Assembly (NCBI GenBank): GCA_002839375.1
Contig: PGXY01000004.1
Coordinates: 17,142 to 51,611 of the forward strand
Source: Spirochaetae bacterium HGW-Spirochaetae-1
Lineage (GTDB): Bacteria; Spirochaetota; UBA4802; UBA5550
DNA length: 34,470 bases
Reading direction: 5' to 3'
Shown here: piece by piece, positions 521 through 17,999 of the stretch
How positions within the stretch are numbered: the stretch's first letter is position 1
Layout of the letters: the number at the start of each line of letters is the position of its first letter
Made by a program: the position numbers and the translations under genes
Notes under the pieces: generated by a model
What the model was told of the DNA's origin: nothing
Seen by the model: only the letters and a program-made list of their open reading frames with translations
The model's database searches: none

Positions 521-807
521 ATGGGAGACTGTATACGCTACGGAACCTGTTGCCAGGATGTGCGCCTTGCTGAACAGCCGTATATGCTTCAGACGGCCTA
601 TGAGTACTGGCTGAAAACACCAAAGAAGATCTTCCCTGTCATTACCGGTGTAAGCATTACACGGTTGATGATGAGGGTCTCGGATGCTGCTCAATCCACA
701 TCTTTCGTCAAAAAATGTGCGCCGGTTTTCCCCATTATGATGAAGTTGAGCATCTTGACCGCGACGAGGCTCCGAGCCTCTATGAGGGATACGGGTATAA
801 CGAATGA
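521..807 (+). pseudogene. Decayed YkgJ-type Zn/Fe-chelating Cys-cluster protein
   Basis: A good start (ATG 521, preceded by GGGAGGGAG at 508-516) opens a frame beginning MGDCIRYGTCCQDVRL. The YkgJ/UPF0153 family (PF03692) normally has C-x-x-C-G-x-C-C there; here the second Cys is Tyr. The family's second cluster is present but in another frame: from about 631, that frame reads YRCKHYTVDDEGLGCC and then QKMCAGFP, ending at the TGA at 805-807. A one-base frameshift therefore lies somewhere between about 605 and 640. With the lost Cys this points to a dead gene, although a sequencing error could explain the shift alone. It ends 18 bases before the LuxR gene, so the two may once have been co-transcribed. 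The family call is by motif only. Confidence 0.55.
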
Positions 808-825
808 GCTTAACGGGAGACGGTG

Positions 826-2037
826 ATGGAAATAAATATACTTATTACCGTATTGTCATCGATCGCCTTCATTAGTTATTGCTATTTCGGATTATATGTT
901 TTTTTGCTTGATCCAGGTGATCCGCAGAAACGAAACTTTTTTTACTTCTGCGTCTCCTTTGCCCTCTGGAGTTTCTGTTATATTGTTATTGCTTCATCAT
1001 CCAGTACCTCGACGGTTATCTTCTGGCAGAAGGCTGCCTATGCCGGCGCCCTGACTTACGAAGTTTTTATCCTCAGGTTTTTTCTTGATTTCACCGGGGT
1101 GATAGAGAGAATTCAACATAGAAAACTTTTTGCTGTTATGTTATGGATTGTGCCAGCACTTTTTCTGCATGAGAATTTTCTTAATAATACGATCGCCCAT
1201 GATTTCCCTGATGGGTTCTGGTATATTGGTCTGCATGTTTTGGCCGGTGCCTACAATTTTACCAGCCTGGCACTTCTTTATTTTTTTTATAAGAAGAGCA
1301 ATTCCTTCCGTATAAAAAAACAGGTTAAAATTATTTTTACCGGAGGTTTTGTCACTATCCTGATCACTGTTCCTACTGATTTTTTTATGGGTTTACAGCA
1401 TATACCGACACTCACGCCGGTCCTGATACTTATCTGGATTTCTTCGCTTTTCTATGCCCTTGTCCGGTATAAGTTTCTCGTCCTTTCGCCCGAAATGATT
1501 GCCCGGGAGGTATTTTCTCATATTGATGAACTGGTAATACTTTTCGATCCAGAAGGAAGGGTAATAAAATGCAACAGCAACAGCAGCAATCTCCCGGGAA
1601 AGAACTCACTGGAAAACCTTTCACTTAATGAGCTTTTTACCGATCCTGGGCTTGTGAGAGAAAATTTTAAAGAATTATTTAAGGGGAAGATAAAGGATTT
1701 CAACCTCAGGCTTTCATTGCAGCATGAAGGTATAGAATTACCCCTGGAGGGAAGATTCTCTCGCATCAGGGATGAATTCAATGATATCCTCGGGATTCTC
1801 TTTATTGGTAAGGAAGTTAAGGGAATACAGCAAGTAAGAAATATCTACAGGCTGACTCTCCGGGAGGTCCAAATCGTTGAATTACTGCTTCGGGGGAAGG
1901 TAAATCGGGAAATTGCCGATACACTGAATATAACTTCAAATACGATCAAGGCCCATATTACCAATATTTATAACAAGTGCGGAGTAAATACGAAACTGGC
2001 TCTCATGGATCTAATGAAGCAGTATGAACTAGTCTAA
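826..2037 (+). CDS. Membrane-bound LuxR-type regulator (7TM-PAS-HTH)
   Basis: This is a 403-residue protein with three parts. Residues 1 to about 215 are strongly hydrophobic, with roughly seven membrane spans, and resemble the N-terminal 7TM region of some histidine kinases (PF16927-like). Residues about 225-325 look like a PAS-type sensor (DELVILFDPEGRVIKCN). Residues about 340-400 form a LuxR/GerE helix-turn-helix with REVQIVELLLRGKVNREIA and TIKAHITNIYNKC. No kinase domain or phospho-acceptor receiver is visible, so it probably senses in the membrane and binds DNA directly. The ATG at 826 is chosen over the GTG at 823 because GGGAG lies at a better distance. It precedes a lipoprotein gene by 101 bases, and the same pairing recurs in damaged form at 4612-5593, suggesting that the lipoprotein is its target. 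Confidence 0.85.
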   Translation: MEINILITVLSSIAFISYCYFGLYVFLLDPGDPQKRNFFYFCVSFALWSFCYIVIASSSSTSTVIFWQKAAYAGALTYEVFILRFFLDFTGVIERIQHRKLFAVMLWIVPALFLHENFLNNTIAHDFPDGFWYIGLHVLAGAYNFTSLALLYFFYKKSNSFRIKKQVKIIFTGGFVTILITVPTDFFMGLQHIPTLTPVLILIWISSLFYALVRYKFLVLSPEMIAREVFSHIDELVILFDPEGRVIKCNSNSSNLPGKNSLENLSLNELFTDPGLVRENFKELFKGKIKDFNLRLSLQHEGIELPLEGRFSRIRDEFNDILGILFIGKEVKGIQQVRNIYRLTLREVQIVELLLRGKVNREIADTLNITSNTIKAHITNIYNKCGVNTKLALMDLMKQYELV

Positions 2038-2226
2038 TTTTGACAATAATTGCCTTTCTAGTAGTTTTGGGCGATGTCATATTCTCCCGGTTTTATTATA
2101 TACATTCGATATATTCTAAAATTAAGGGGGAAGCAATTATGAAAAGGCTACAGTCACTGGTATATCTGCTACTGTGTTTAGGGGCGCTGATTGTCGTAGT
2201 TGGCGTGAATACGGGGTGTGAAAATT
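2034..2226 (+). repeat. Conserved leader plus signal-peptide module, copy 1
   Basis: From the end of luxR through the lipoprotein leader and signal peptide, this segment matches 4840-5032 with only about four differences. It includes a TTGACA hexamer at 2040-2045, an AT-rich leader, the ribosome binding site AAGGGGG and the first 29 codons of the lipoprotein. Similarity stops abruptly after the codons for ENSSDE. No convincing -10 box lies at standard spacing from the TTGACA, so promoter use is unproven. Confidence 0.85.
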
Positions 2227-3269
2227 CTTCTGATGAAGATGAAAAAACTTCCCTTCCGGTAATATTGATTACCCCCGGAACTGTTGAAGAAGATATTTCG
2301 GCAAACTTGACTTTTTCAGTTTCTATCGACAAAATAGAACAGGGAGATACTGTAACCGTAGACTGGACTACCAGTAACGGTACTGCAACTGCAGGAGAAG
2401 ATTATACCGCGGATTCCGGTACCCTGACATTTTCCTCTACTGATCCACAGGAAGTGAATGTTGTTGTGATTGATGATGAAATATACGAAGAAAACGAAAC
2501 CGTTCTTCTTGTTTTATCAAATCCTGTGAATGCAAAGATTGACACTTCTATCGCAGATGGTGCTGAGGGGACTATAACAAGTGATGGAAACTATCAGATT
2601 GTAGTGGGCCCAACATATGACTCAGTTTATTCTTCCAGTCCACGGCCAGATGGTGTTATCTATGTTGATGGCGCTTTATGGATTATAGAAGTAAATGCTG
2701 CTAAACTGTATACTATTGATCCAGCAACAGGTACCGAGTCGAGTTCTTTTTCTATGAATATTGCTCATGACTTATCCTGGGATGGCACTTATATCTGGTC
2801 AACGTCATATTTTGGTGCCCACCCTCATCTTTACAAGTACGACACATCAGGCGCCCTTCAGTCTGATATTACAATAACTGATGAGGCTAACTTTCCTACT
2901 GCCATGGCATATGATACTCATAACAATTGTATATGGGTGGTAAATACTAACTCTACCCCGGAAACAAAGGTGTGGCAGATAAATCCTGTAAGTGGTGCTG
3001 TTATTGATTCCTGGACTCTAACAGATGGCAATACCTTGTCTGGAGTTACCTACGGTATGTGTGTGGACAGCAAGCCCGGGTATCTCTGGATGGTATATGG
3101 CTCTACTTTGCGAAAGGTCTCTATTGCTGAGAAAAGTGTTGTTAAGGACTTTACAATCCCCTCACCTCCGGCAGCCTTACTTACAGGTGTTTTTCAGGTG
3201 GAGACAAATGAATTTTGGATGGTAAGCGGAAATAATAATGTTTTTTTCAAGATAGAAATTACAGAATAG
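2139..3269 (+). CDS. Surface lipoprotein with Calx-beta domain and propeller-like C-terminus
   Basis: A 376-residue predicted lipoprotein. The start at ATG 2139 is set by AAGGGGG at 2124-2130; the longer in-frame ORF from 2040 would read through the leader. The signal peptide ends in GVNTGC, with Cys27 as the likely lipidated residue; Asn at -3 is unusual but spirochaete lipoboxes are relaxed. Residues about 45-150 look like a Calx-beta domain: GDTVTVDWTTSNGTATAGED followed by an acidic IDDEIYEENETVLL strand, typical of Ca-binding adhesin modules. Residues about 155-376 contain repeated Trp-rich motifs (ALWIIEVN, YIWSTSYF, CIWVVNTN, YLWMVYG, EFWMVSG) spaced like beta-propeller blades. The role is probably adhesion or ligand binding at the cell surface. 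It sits directly behind the membrane-bound LuxR gene. Confidence 0.8.
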   Translation: MKRLQSLVYLLLCLGALIVVVGVNTGCENSSDEDEKTSLPVILITPGTVEEDISANLTFSVSIDKIEQGDTVTVDWTTSNGTATAGEDYTADSGTLTFSSTDPQEVNVVVIDDEIYEENETVLLVLSNPVNAKIDTSIADGAEGTITSDGNYQIVVGPTYDSVYSSSPRPDGVIYVDGALWIIEVNAAKLYTIDPATGTESSSFSMNIAHDLSWDGTYIWSTSYFGAHPHLYKYDTSGALQSDITITDEANFPTAMAYDTHNNCIWVVNTNSTPETKVWQINPVSGAVIDSWTLTDGNTLSGVTYGMCVDSKPGYLWMVYGSTLRKVSIAEKSVVKDFTIPSPPAALLTGVFQVETNEFWMVSGNNNVFFKIEITE

Positions 3270-3344: not shown

Positions 3345-3435
3345 GCTGGGTCTTTTAGCGGGCATAGAGGTTGCAAGTTGCAAGTTCTTATGATCTCTTT
3401 AACTGATGTTTAAATCAGAGATTTTTTTTGAAATT

Positions 3436-3530
3436 TAGGAAATTCCGCCGCCGGAAATTAGTCCATGGAACACAAGATATCTTATCCGAAGCTGGCATCC
3501 CGGCAACCGCTGAATTAATGTATTGATAAA
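3436..3530. repeat. Dispersed intergenic repeat, copy B
   Basis: This begins TTCCGCCGCCGGAAA and continues through AACACAAGATATCTTA to CCGCTGAATTAATGTATTGA. It is a diverged copy of the element at 5654-5770, and its front end matches 6947-6984. The rest of the 3270-3977 gap holds the upstream stem-loop, a 7-bp stem ACCCGGC/GCCGGGT at 3821-3843, and no credible gene. Confidence 0.7.
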
Positions 3531-3977
3531 ATACGCTAAATTTTTGGTGCCCCACTTCGTCACAGTGAGGAAGCCCCTGGGGAAATCCGACATATCCGAT
3601 CACTAGAATCTGACGGTCTCTGGCAATAACGCATCCGCTCCACCCCTGTCACAGGTGGGTCATTGGTAGTTTTCTGAATCCATGATTATTCCTTTCCCGC
3701 TCAAAAATCTTGTTTTATTATTCCCCGATTCTCGGAAAAAAGCAAGAAGAAGCGACATGTAAAAAGACACCTGGATTATTTGCCGGGTTTCGGTCTGTCG
3801 GCTGCCAACACCGCTAAGAGACCCGGCGGTTTCCCTGCCGGGTCAATTCGACTTGTAGAGAGGAAAGTTAGTTTGCGGTTTTACCCTTTTTAAAAAGTCC
3901 ATTGACTTTTTCCCTACGATATGACATTCTAAAAATACTATATAGCATAACAACATCTTAAAAACAGGAGTTTCTTA

Positions 3978-4611: not shown

Positions 4612-4843
4612 ACTCCAGAGATCACTGAAAAACCTTCCTCTTAATGAGCTTTTTGTTAATCCCGGGCTTGTGCGAAAAAATATTAAAGAATTATTTGAGG
4701 GGAAGGTAAATCGGGAAATTGCCGATACACTGAATATAACTTCAAATACGATCAATGCCCATATTACCAATATTTATAACAAGTGCGGAGTAAATACGAA
4801 ACTGGCTCTCATGAATCTAATGAAGCAGTATGAACTAGTCTAA
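4612..4843 (+). pseudogene. Truncated, internally deleted LuxR remnant
   Basis: This fragment has no start codon and a stop codon (TAA) in frame just upstream. Bases 4617-4705 match luxR at about 1601-1689 (roughly 85% over the part I compared); bases 4706-4843 match 1900-2037 almost exactly. The 210 bases between (70 codons, the end of the PAS domain and first HTH helices) are missing. The junction falls at GGGGAAG, present at both ends in the intact gene (1683-1689 and 1893-1899), so the reading frame is kept. The sudden change in identity at the junction suggests a mosaic of two paralogues. The residual protein could not bind DNA as a normal LuxR domain. Confidence 0.85.
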
Positions 4844-5032
4844 TTTTGACAATAACTGCCTTTCTAGTAGTTTTGGGCGATGTCATATTCTCCCGGTTTT
4901 ATTATATATATTCGATATATTCTAAAATTAAGGGTGAAGCAATTATGAAAAGGCTACAGTCACTGGTATATCTGCTACTGTGTTTAGGGACGCTGATTGT
5001 CGTAGTTGGCGTGAATACGGGGTGTGAAAATT
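4840..5032 (+). repeat. Conserved leader plus signal-peptide module, copy 2
   Basis: Nearly identical to 2034-2226, including the TTGACA (4846-4851), the AT-rich leader and the start of the lipoprotein. One change falls in the ribosome binding site (AAGGGTG here, AAGGGGG in copy 1), which may weaken translation. The match ends where the mature lipoprotein domains diverge. Confidence 0.85.
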
Positions 5033-5490
5033 CTTCTGATGAACCGGATGAACCTGCCATTTATCTTTTCCCAATGCCCACGACTTTAGGCAATATTGGC
5101 AGTCGCGCAACAACAGACGCCGCCTGCCTGGCGGAATACCAGGCTAACTATTCACAGAAAAAATGTGACCTTGTTCACGCTTTTCTCAGCTATTCCGATG
5201 CAGATGAGATTCGTGACATGCCGACCCTTTACAATGTACCGACAGTTCTGCCAGTAAAGAGCATGAATGGCACAGAGATAGCTGAAAACTGGCAGCAGCT
5301 TCTTGATGCCAATAATCAGAACCTGAGCAGTTCTCTCTATGATGCGGGCCTTTTTACTGATGATGGCATTCTCTTTTTCTGGACTGGTTCTGATCATGAG
5401 GGGGCTGCTTCTCCTGGAATACTGTCGGGGAACGATCATTGCAGCGGCTGGAGCACCACCTCATCTGCCGGTGATGGGGGGGGGTGGTAA
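4945..5490 (+). CDS. DUF1554-type lipoprotein, truncated by a poly-G frameshift
   Basis: As read, a 181-residue protein starting at ATG 4945. It shares its first 33 residues or so (signal peptide, lipobox Cys27, ENSSDE) with the Calx-beta lipoprotein at 2139. The mature part is unrelated: RATTDAACLAEYQANY, then FLSYSDADEIRDMP, PVKSMNGTEIAENW and FFWTGS, the layout of DUF1554 (PF07588), common in Leptospira lipoproteins. The frame ends just after a run of nine G residues at 5476-5484. Removing one G would continue in the next frame through NHGFSHCNVSRPYLGICW, which looks like the family's Cys-containing C-terminus, to the TAG at 5591-5593, giving about 215 residues. This is either a switched-off phase-variable allele, a pseudogene or a homopolymer sequencing error. 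Confidence 0.8.
   Translation: MKRLQSLVYLLLCLGTLIVVVGVNTGCENSSDEPDEPAIYLFPMPTTLGNIGSRATTDAACLAEYQANYSQKKCDLVHAFLSYSDADEIRDMPTLYNVPTVLPVKSMNGTEIAENWQQLLDANNQNLSSSLYDAGLFTDDGILFFWTGSDHEGAASPGILSGNDHCSGWSTTSSAGDGGGW
5476..5484 (+). repeat. Nine-G homopolymer within the DUF1554 gene
   Basis: Nine consecutive G residues are flanked by GAT and TGG. Eight would keep the gene in frame to 5593; nine gives a stop at 5488-5490. Homopolymeric G tracts inside surface-protein genes are known slipped-strand switches in several bacteria, including treponemes. Confidence 0.85.
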
Positions 5491-5593
5491 TAAAACAGGT
5501 ATAAATTATAGTTTTCTGAACCATGGTTTTTCCCATTGTAATGTATCGCGGCCCTACCTGGGCATCTGCTGGAAAGATCAGAATCCTATATAG
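5491..5593 (+). pseudogene. Out-of-frame C-terminus of the DUF1554 lipoprotein
   Basis: In the frame shifted by one base, this stretch encodes NKTGINYSFLNHGFSHC and then RPYLGICWKDQNPI before TAG. The two Cys residues and the RPYLGIC motif match what is expected at the end of a DUF1554 domain, so it is the lost tail of the preceding gene and not a separate one. Confidence 0.7.
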
Positions 5594-5653
5594 ATTTTTT
5601 ATGCCGAAAGCAATGTACCTGAAGATATGAAAATGATTTTAAAATAGAAATAC

Positions 5654-5770
5654 AGGAAACTCCGCCGCCGGAAACCAGTTCATGGGACACAAAATATCTT
5701 ACTTGTGCTGAGCCTGTCGAAGCATCCAAAGCTGATCCCGGCGACCGCTGAGCTAATGTATTGACAAAAT
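5654..5770. repeat. Dispersed intergenic repeat, copy C (fullest copy)
   Basis: The element runs from GGAAACTCCGCCGCCGGAAA through ACACAAAATATCTTACTTG, GAGCCTGTCGAAGCATCC and CCGCTGAGCTAATGTATTGA. Parts recur at 3436-3530, 6947-6984, 18236-18315, 20218-20290 and 27018-27080, always between genes. No reading frame or clear terminal inverted repeat is visible, so it is neither an IS nor an obvious MITE; it resembles REP-like or degenerate intergenic repeats. Confidence 0.75.
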
Positions 5771-5792
5771 ATTCAAAAAAGGTAAAGCTTTA

Positions 5793-5931
5793 TTAAAATT
5801 TGGCAATGATCAAACTGATAAAACGTGCATCAAGCAGTATGATGCCAATGATCAGCAGATACCCTATAGAAAAGAATCGCACCAAGAGAAACAAGAACAA
5901 TCGAGATGCTTTTTTCTGTAATAATATTCAT
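5793..5931 (-). pseudogene. Possible frameshifted small membrane protein
   Basis: From the ATG at 5931 the minus strand reads MNIITEKSISIVLVSLGAIL. In the neighbouring frame it continues FSIGYLLIIGIILLDARFI and on to a TAA at 5793. Joined by a one-base shift near the middle, this would be a single-span or two-span membrane protein of roughly 46 residues. As it stands, the first frame stops at 5830. The continuous hydrophobicity across the shift is the only evidence; no family is recognised. Confidence 0.3.
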
Positions 5932-5973
5932 GGCAAATCATTGTACTATTAATCTCACACACTGGAAACATAT

Positions 5974-6108
5974 ATGGACAAAGACAATCGTAAACGTGAA
6001 CGAGTCGCCATAGATCAGATCATAGAGATTTCAACCAGCGATGGGCAATTGTTACGATGCGTTAAAGTTGACGGAAAATACGATATAGTAGTTGATTTAA
6101 CCTGTTAG
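5974..6108 (+). pseudogene. Internally deleted PilZ gene (44-residue remnant)
   Basis: ATG 5974 opens a 44-codon frame ending at TAG 6106-6108. The first 24 residues (MDKDNRKRERVAIDQIIEIS and a few more) look like the N-terminus of a PilZ protein, with the Arg-rich segment that contacts cyclic di-GMP. The last 18 codons match the PilZ C-terminus at 51-107. The central strands of the barrel are absent and the frame is intact across the junction, as in the LuxR remnant at 4612-4843. No strong ribosome binding site is visible. A folded PilZ barrel is not possible at this length; it is probably an inactive deletion product. Confidence 0.6.
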
Positions 6109-6329
6109 AACTAATTGATCCGGCTTTATGTCCTTACTATCCCTCTCAGCATTACAGAGAGAGATATCACACTTAGCTGGGAAAAAGAAACCTGTTCCCC
6201 TGCTTCACCATCCCCTTGAGAGCCTTTACCCCTTCTTCAACTGTCTGCGCAACCTTTGAAGGCTCTTTGCCTCCGGCCCTGAGCCATGGCCTTGTGACCG
6301 CCGCAGCCCGGAGCCGGTTGATGAGACCA
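6051..6329. repeat. Duplicated block, copy 2 (PilZ 3' end plus spacer)
   Basis: Second copy of 50-317, carrying the same PilZ 3' end, hairpin (6139-6165, one mismatch) and GC-rich spacer. It ends near GAGCCGGTTGATGAGACC. Bases 6330-6470 beyond it show no gene. Confidence 0.8.
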
Positions 6330-6473
6330 AAAAGCCTTACCTAACCGGAGCTCTTTGTCAATTTTTTAATGCATCGGTCATCAGGCACCGATTCGGACAA
6401 GATGTACTTTATTGTATAAACTGGTTTCAGGTAAAGAAAATTCCTTAATAGCAATACAGTATAGAGATAACAC

Positions 6474-6930: not shown

Positions 6931-6946
6931 ATGCTTAGAATTATAA

Positions 6947-6984
6947 GAAACTCCGCCGCCGGAAACCAGTTCAATACACAAAAA
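6947..6984. repeat. Dispersed intergenic repeat, copy D (short)
   Basis: GAAACTCCGCCGCCGGAAAC followed by CAGTTCA matches the front end of copy C (5654-5770). It lies exactly between two convergent terminators. Confidence 0.7.
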
Positions 6985-16709: not shown

Positions 16710-17999
16710 TTACCAGATTAAAATTTCATCAAAGTAAACCGATGTATATTCGCCAACTTTCATATATATTTTATTCATTGATGTTCTGAAGTTATCGAAT
16801 TGATAAACACCATAATAAGAACCGTTGATATACAATTCAAAATTATAATCAATCCAGTTAATCCTCTTAAATTCAAAATGGTACCAGACATTTGGAGAAT
16901 AATTGCCGACAACACCCTGCCCCCAGAGATTAATCACATTTTGTTGAAAAGTGGTGCTGTAATAAAGCGATATGCCACTGACATTTTGATATTGCGTGTT
17001 GGAATATGTTGAATCTAAAAACCACAGATAATTCATTTCCGTGGTTAATTCTGTTACCCTCATGTAGAAACCAATATACTCAGGATTCACTTTATTTGGG
17101 AATGTATAAGTAAGTTCATAAGATGCATCATCATTGGAAGTCATACGCACTGATCTGTTTGAAATGAATTCCTGATCAGAAATAGTAAATGAGTAATCGT
17201 CATAAATGGATGTACTATAATACCAGTCTGAGTAATCATCATCGAAACTTTCATAAAAAAGAATCCGGTACACGGTAAAAGAATAAGTAATAGGCTGTGA
17301 ATAGAGACTTCCCTTTTTAATCCGGAGAGTCATGGTTGCCGGGGCATTGTTCAGATATCGGGTGATAATGCCGTCATCAGTTATTACACTTTCATCCAAT
17401 GATTCCCAGATGAGCGTTGTACCATTAATTCCCGAGGTGGGAAAAGACAAAGAATTAGTCACTTTATTGATAGAAATATCTCCACCGGTTAAAAAATCGG
17501 CATGATTTATATTGAGATAATACTCGTAAGCTTCATCAAGCGCATTCTGATCGGCAATAGGACATAATATCTGCCTTACGGAGTAGCCGTATGAGTTTTC
17601 AGCTGTAACAATTATTCTATAATTTTTTCCATTGTCAATCCCAGTGAAAGTGTAGCCTGAATCAGATACATCTATAGTGCCTTCTGTATAGTTGGAAACA
17701 GTCGCACCGGCAATATCGATCTCTCCCTCTTCTCCAATGTATGCGAAAATTATGGGATCTGGATCTCCTTCATCGACAAACTCTGGCCTCGCCAGTGTTA
17801 TTGAATTGTAAGTAGACCCTTCTATAACAAGTTCCTTTAGTTCTGGTCTTTTTCCAACGATGGTGTCATCACTGGAATTGTCCTCGATTGTGGTGTCGTC
17901 CGCGGGAGTATTGCCGGAATTATTTGCATCGTCTATACATCCGACAGATAGTAGCATTATAATAGCAAACACAATATGTTTCTTAAGATTATTCATCAT
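16710..17999 (-). CDS. Multidomain surface lipoprotein (FN3/Ig-like and lectin-like)
   Basis: A 429-residue lipoprotein with a signal peptide ending LLSVGC (Cys21) and an acidic Asp/Thr/Asn-rich linker to about residue 50. Residues about 52-147 look like a fibronectin-III-like beta-sandwich (TFTGIDNGKNYRIIVTAENS). Residues about 150-245 fit an atrophied bacterial Ig domain (SGINGTTLIWESLDESVITD and RYLNNAPATMTLRIKKG). Residues about 248-429 resemble a concanavalin/LamG-type lectin sandwich: LFYESFDDDYSDW, VWYHFEFKRI, YNFELYINGSYYG and a final strand VYFDEILIW. The likely role is binding glycans or host or matrix polymers at the surface. The start has no clear ribosome binding site; ATG 17996 is an equally possible start. 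AT-rich, monocistronic, with a terminator downstream. Confidence 0.75.
   Translation of the reverse strand: MMNNLKKHIVFAIIMLLSVGCIDDANNSGNTPADDTTIEDNSSDDTIVGKRPELKELVIEGSTYNSITLARPEFVDEGDPDPIIFAYIGEEGEIDIAGATVSNYTEGTIDVSDSGYTFTGIDNGKNYRIIVTAENSYGYSVRQILCPIADQNALDEAYEYYLNINHADFLTGGDISINKVTNSLSFPTSGINGTTLIWESLDESVITDDGIITRYLNNAPATMTLRIKKGSLYSQPITYSFTVYRILFYESFDDDYSDWYYSTSIYDDYSFTISDQEFISNRSVRMTSNDDASYELTYTFPNKVNPEYIGFYMRVTELTTEMNYLWFLDSTYSNTQYQNVSGISLYYSTTFQQNVINLWGQGVVGNYSPNVWYHFEFKRINWIDYNFELYINGSYYGVYQFDNFRTSMNKIYMKVGEYTSVYFDEILIW

Follow-up and report, generated by a model that had tools for sequence, protein, structure and literature searches.

The closest described counterparts of the lipoprotein considered here are the Len proteins of Leptospira interrogans, which are predicted to be endostatin-like and carry the DUF1554 domain (PMC2063517, PMC2387172); the binding of host matrix or complement factors by these proteins is an experimental property (PMC2063517). 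Two other systems concern poly-G tracts. The promoter of the Treponema pallidum tprL gene has a tract of 7-11 G, mostly 9, that varies within isolates (PMC7864442), and in Campylobacter such tracts exceed chance frequency, usually lie within genes and differ from isolate to isolate (PMC6321876).

The present locus lies in a 34,470-nucleotide stretch of the genome of Spirochaetae bacterium HGW-Spirochaetae-1, referred to here as the window. Like the Leptospira Len lipoproteins (PF07588), its product has a lipoprotein signal followed by a predicted endostatin-like domain; however, the window protein comes from an uncultured environmental spirochaete, scores below the PF07588 threshold and is truncated by a change of frame. 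As at T. pallidum tprL, one of the poly-G phase-variable genes of that species, a tract of about nine G's is found at a surface-protein gene of a spirochaete, but the tprL tract is in the promoter and has been shown to be variable, whereas the tract here is intragenic, near the 3' end, and was read in one assembled sequence. An intragenic nine-G tract that breaks the frame also recalls the Campylobacter contingency loci, but this genome has few such tracts, without enrichment, and most of them leave the frame intact. The features of the gene are as follows.

4945..5490, + strand: frame-truncated lipoprotein ORF of 181 amino acids, with a signal peptide and lipobox (...GVNTGC) and a putative endostatin-like (DUF1554/Len-type) domain that is missing its C-terminal end
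5476..5484, + strand: G9 tract, at the site of the conserved GxxG motif of the family
5486..5593, + strand: remaining part of the putative endostatin-like domain, read in +1 (35 codons plus stop), with the signature CN...LGICW

The tract, which codes for glycines, is the only G/C run of at least 7 in the window, and as a bare run it is within chance (three G7 matches seen versus a mean of 6 in dinucleotide shuffles of the window). It is a slippable mononucleotide tract placed so that its length sets the reading frame, and about 83% of the gene precedes it. The ORF ends with ...SSAGDGGGW, followed by two stops at 5488-5493. In the +1 frame past the tract, the sequence continues as ...GNKTGINYSFLNHGFSHCNVSRPYLGICWKDQNPI to a stop at 5593; it has no internal stop, runs six residues past the usual family end and, as the preliminary description expected, keeps the family signature CN...YLGICW.

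That description also held that the nine G's put the last 35 codons out of frame, and this was confirmed with an HMM built from 28 relatives, with the window protein left out. The 5' piece scores 117 bits over model positions 10-149. The tail by itself scores 10.5 bits over positions 152-180, compared with a maximum of 4.6 among 200 shuffled tails. The two pieces adjoin in this relatives-only profile, which places the frame break at the G9 tract. A length comparison by profile search, proposed earlier as a check, agrees: in an order-wide search with the profile of an alignment of 13 relatives, the window gene covers positions 1-131 of 161 only, and nearly all other homologues reach 159-161. 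The frameshift in the endostatin-like lipoprotein gene, as assembled, is thus real and located at a private G9 tract. Because the tail keeps its family signature, the frameshift is either recent or carried by only some of the cells.

The family assignment comes mostly from the relatives. With DUF1554 (PF07588) the window protein itself scores 10.7 bits (E = 0.48), below the cut-off of 27.5. A Pfam search of both pieces and a PF07588 search of the whole genome gave no match, and for this reason profiles built from relatives were used. Five of the 13 aligned relatives match PF07588 and eight give weak matches to Endostatin (PF06482); the profile of this alignment, which was too diverse to serve for contig scans, matches mammalian endostatin chains in the PDB (E = 1e-4). 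We would therefore assign the window protein to the endostatin-like (DUF1554/Len-type) lipoproteins, with the DUF1554 label, correct in the preliminary description, resting on the relatives. The predicted structure of one relative has a mean pLDDT of 29.7, so the endostatin-like fold is a sequence-based prediction. The lipoprotein signal peptide with its lipobox cysteine, MKRLQSLVYLLLCLGTLIVVVGVNTGC, can be read directly from the translation, in agreement with the earlier call of a lipoprotein.

The missing part includes the conserved CN and LxxCW/Y end and, judging from the alignment with endostatin, would contain the C-terminal cysteines. Endostatin contains disulfides. With this conserved end and its cysteines missing, the 181-residue product is probably unfolded.

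Relatives with about 24-38% identity were found in 23 other genomes among 148 searched, none of them of the same genus. Among the named genomes scanned, the window protein hit no relative; the protein of a relative hit one named record, the metagenome-assembled genome Spirochaetes bacterium RBG_16_49_21, and records such as this one suggest that the lineage is environmental. Frameshift-broken genes number zero among 44 other homologues, from 46 genomes of the order; where a match is short, which happens in a few cases, the contig ends there or the alignment covers part of a longer ORF. None of the homologues inspected has a G run at the GxxG motif: the middle two residues are usually non-glycine and the glycine codons are mixed. 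Viral contigs scanned with a pattern of the tract and its flanking letters gave no match either. GGG makes up 19% of glycine codons in a genome sample; as the tract replaces the usual non-glycine middle of the motif and GGG is only this common, keeping the family codons would not by itself account for the tract.

G/C runs of at least 9 number only 12 in the 5.2-Mb genome and are not enriched. In a 434 kb sample, parts of which happen to contain long G/C runs, eight runs of 7 were seen versus 52 expected and three runs of 8 versus 14 expected under a first-order model. Five of the six in-gene runs of at least 9 are in frame, all five in intact, non-surface genes (radical SAM, histidine kinase, DHH-CBS, DUF2201 and MptE-like) whose matched domains span or flank the run. 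The tract is thus not kept in the homologues inspected, nor are tracts enriched in the genome. MutS (MutS1) and MutL are intact, unlike the situation in Campylobacter and Helicobacter.

The surroundings of the gene look duplicated and decayed, with a regulator remnant, a broken ykgJ-like gene and degenerate repeats.

521..806, + strand: broken ykgJ-like gene in two frames, with a net loss of about 70 nt versus intact relatives
823..2037, + strand: intact regulator (HisKA_7TM, PAS, LuxR-type HTH), a source-like copy of the remnant
2139..3269, + strand: Calx-beta lipoprotein, with the same signal peptide as the endostatin-like gene and an unrelated body
4622..4843, + strand: regulator remnant (HisKA_7TM/PAS/LuxR) with only the HTH end left; 57-aa ORF from 4670 with a GerE domain
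4699..5052, + strand: duplicated leader of 354 bases, 97.5% identical to 1893-2243
5648..6339, + strand: degenerate repeats, 82-87% identical to 49-327 and to sequence beyond the left end of the window

The regulator remnant corresponds to 1606-1694 joined to 1893-2037, with 85% identity between 4622-4710 and the first of these; the stretch between the two matched parts was deleted, so that a 57-codon remnant with an HTH precedes the lipoprotein gene. The leader consists of the regulator end, the intergenic region, the signal peptide and the lipobox, and it is common to the Calx-beta lipoprotein gene. Because the duplication stops just past the lipobox, two unrelated lipoproteins, Calx-beta and endostatin-like, share an upstream region and a signal peptide. 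The near-identical leaders (1893-2243 and 4699-5052) look as if one had been duplicated onto another gene.

Some further observations concern these neighbours. The ykgJ-like gene is cysteine-rich and has an internal deletion, and an intact paralogue is present on another contig (G000:C3:651093-651446). A scaffold gap of 14 N's is found just left of the window (positions 17128-17141 of the contig), inside the repeat that recurs at 5648-6339. A family of short repeats between genes, with CCGCCGCCGGAA as its GC-rich core, occurs at 3430-3533, 5648-5771 and 6936-6983 and on other contigs, with about 20 partial copies in the genome.

We would put at about one in two the chance that the frameshift is a recent one-base slippage mutation in a private run of glycine codons and mainly a loss of function. 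The gene would first have encoded a secreted lipoprotein whose single domain was endostatin-like (DUF1554/Len-type). A glycine-codon run at the GxxG motif of the family would then have become a nine-G tract, and slippage by one base in this tract would have put the last 35 codons out of frame, leaving a 181-residue product without the conserved end and cysteines. The frameshift presumably originated by slippage, is probably recent, since the tail is still family-like, and would be mainly a loss of function and not a maintained switch. We count in favor of this reading the end-to-end join at the tract, the 44 unbroken homologues, the GxxG codons free of a G tract in those inspected, the decay of the neighbours, a genome that is not poly-G-rich, the in-frame tracts elsewhere and the intact MutS1 and MutL. 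Counted against it are a stop-free tail with its signature, which would also be expected from a maintained switch or an assembly error, a tract that exceeds plain conservation of family codons, and a length of nine G's, which is variable in another spirochaete, Treponema pallidum (PMC7864442). The genome gives no indication of an evolved on/off switch, and recent slippage in a duplicated region under decay is the simpler reading. As the tract is able to slip again, occasional reversal is physically expected; the frameshift is reversible in principle, and adaptive switching is unproven.

The next explanation, phase variation, would have reversible slippage of the G tract switch the full-length lipoprotein on and off, the assembly representing an OFF consensus. 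This is possible, perhaps one chance in a few. The tract sits in a surface-type lipoprotein gene, the tail beyond it is intact and family-like, and the tract is private and more G-rich than the family codons need; poly-G of such length varies in T. pallidum (PMC7864442) and C. jejuni (PMC6321876). However, no inspected homologue has the tract and none is frameshifted, poly-G is not enriched and its in-frame tracts are in housekeeping-type genes, mismatch repair is intact, the tract comes late in the gene and the surroundings are decaying. The preliminary description had proposed such a switch; its frameshift, lipoprotein signal and family stand, but beyond there being a tract that can slip, these observations do not support the switch. 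We think it unlikely that the gene is a poly-G contingency locus for an endostatin-like lipoprotein in a spirochaete that is free-living, uncultured, outside the known pathogens and has its mismatch repair intact.

An assembly or sequencing error, with the true tract length in frame and the gene intact, is also unlikely. Homopolymers are the usual site of such errors, the scaffold gap beside a repeat is just left of the window and the tail is intact; however, five other G/C runs of at least 9 in the same assembly leave their genes in frame, the gap is more than 5 kb from the tract, and the tract is outside the near-identical repeat. Recoding, in which some full-length protein would arise because ribosomes shift by +1 or RNA polymerase slips on the G run, is highly improbable: identical GGG codons in a row allow tRNA re-pairing in the +1 frame and two stops directly follow the tract in the 0 frame, but the downstream RNA structure is no better than chance (z-score -0.05), no relative uses such a site and the TGG codon that precedes the stop is not slip-prone.

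If the tract did vary, an endostatin-like surface lipoprotein of environmental spirochaetes would be under poly-G switching, which has so far been described mostly in pathogens. The case calls for caution: only length variation makes a switch of a G tract in a surface gene, and the number of such tracts in the genome, the relatives and the neighbouring genes can be examined before one is proposed.

Other long G runs of the genome display features of their own. A second frameshift was considered at another G9 run and rejected, as that run appears to be intergenic. The longest G run found in the genome is a G11 (L069 8326-8336; G000:C3:468326), situated between a lipoprotein gene and a short-chain dehydrogenase gene, in the 5' region of the latter. 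Finally, a G9 on the strand of the gene (L055 1501-1509; G000:C9:24045) immediately precedes what is probably the ATG of a small gene and could take the role of a ribosome-binding site there.
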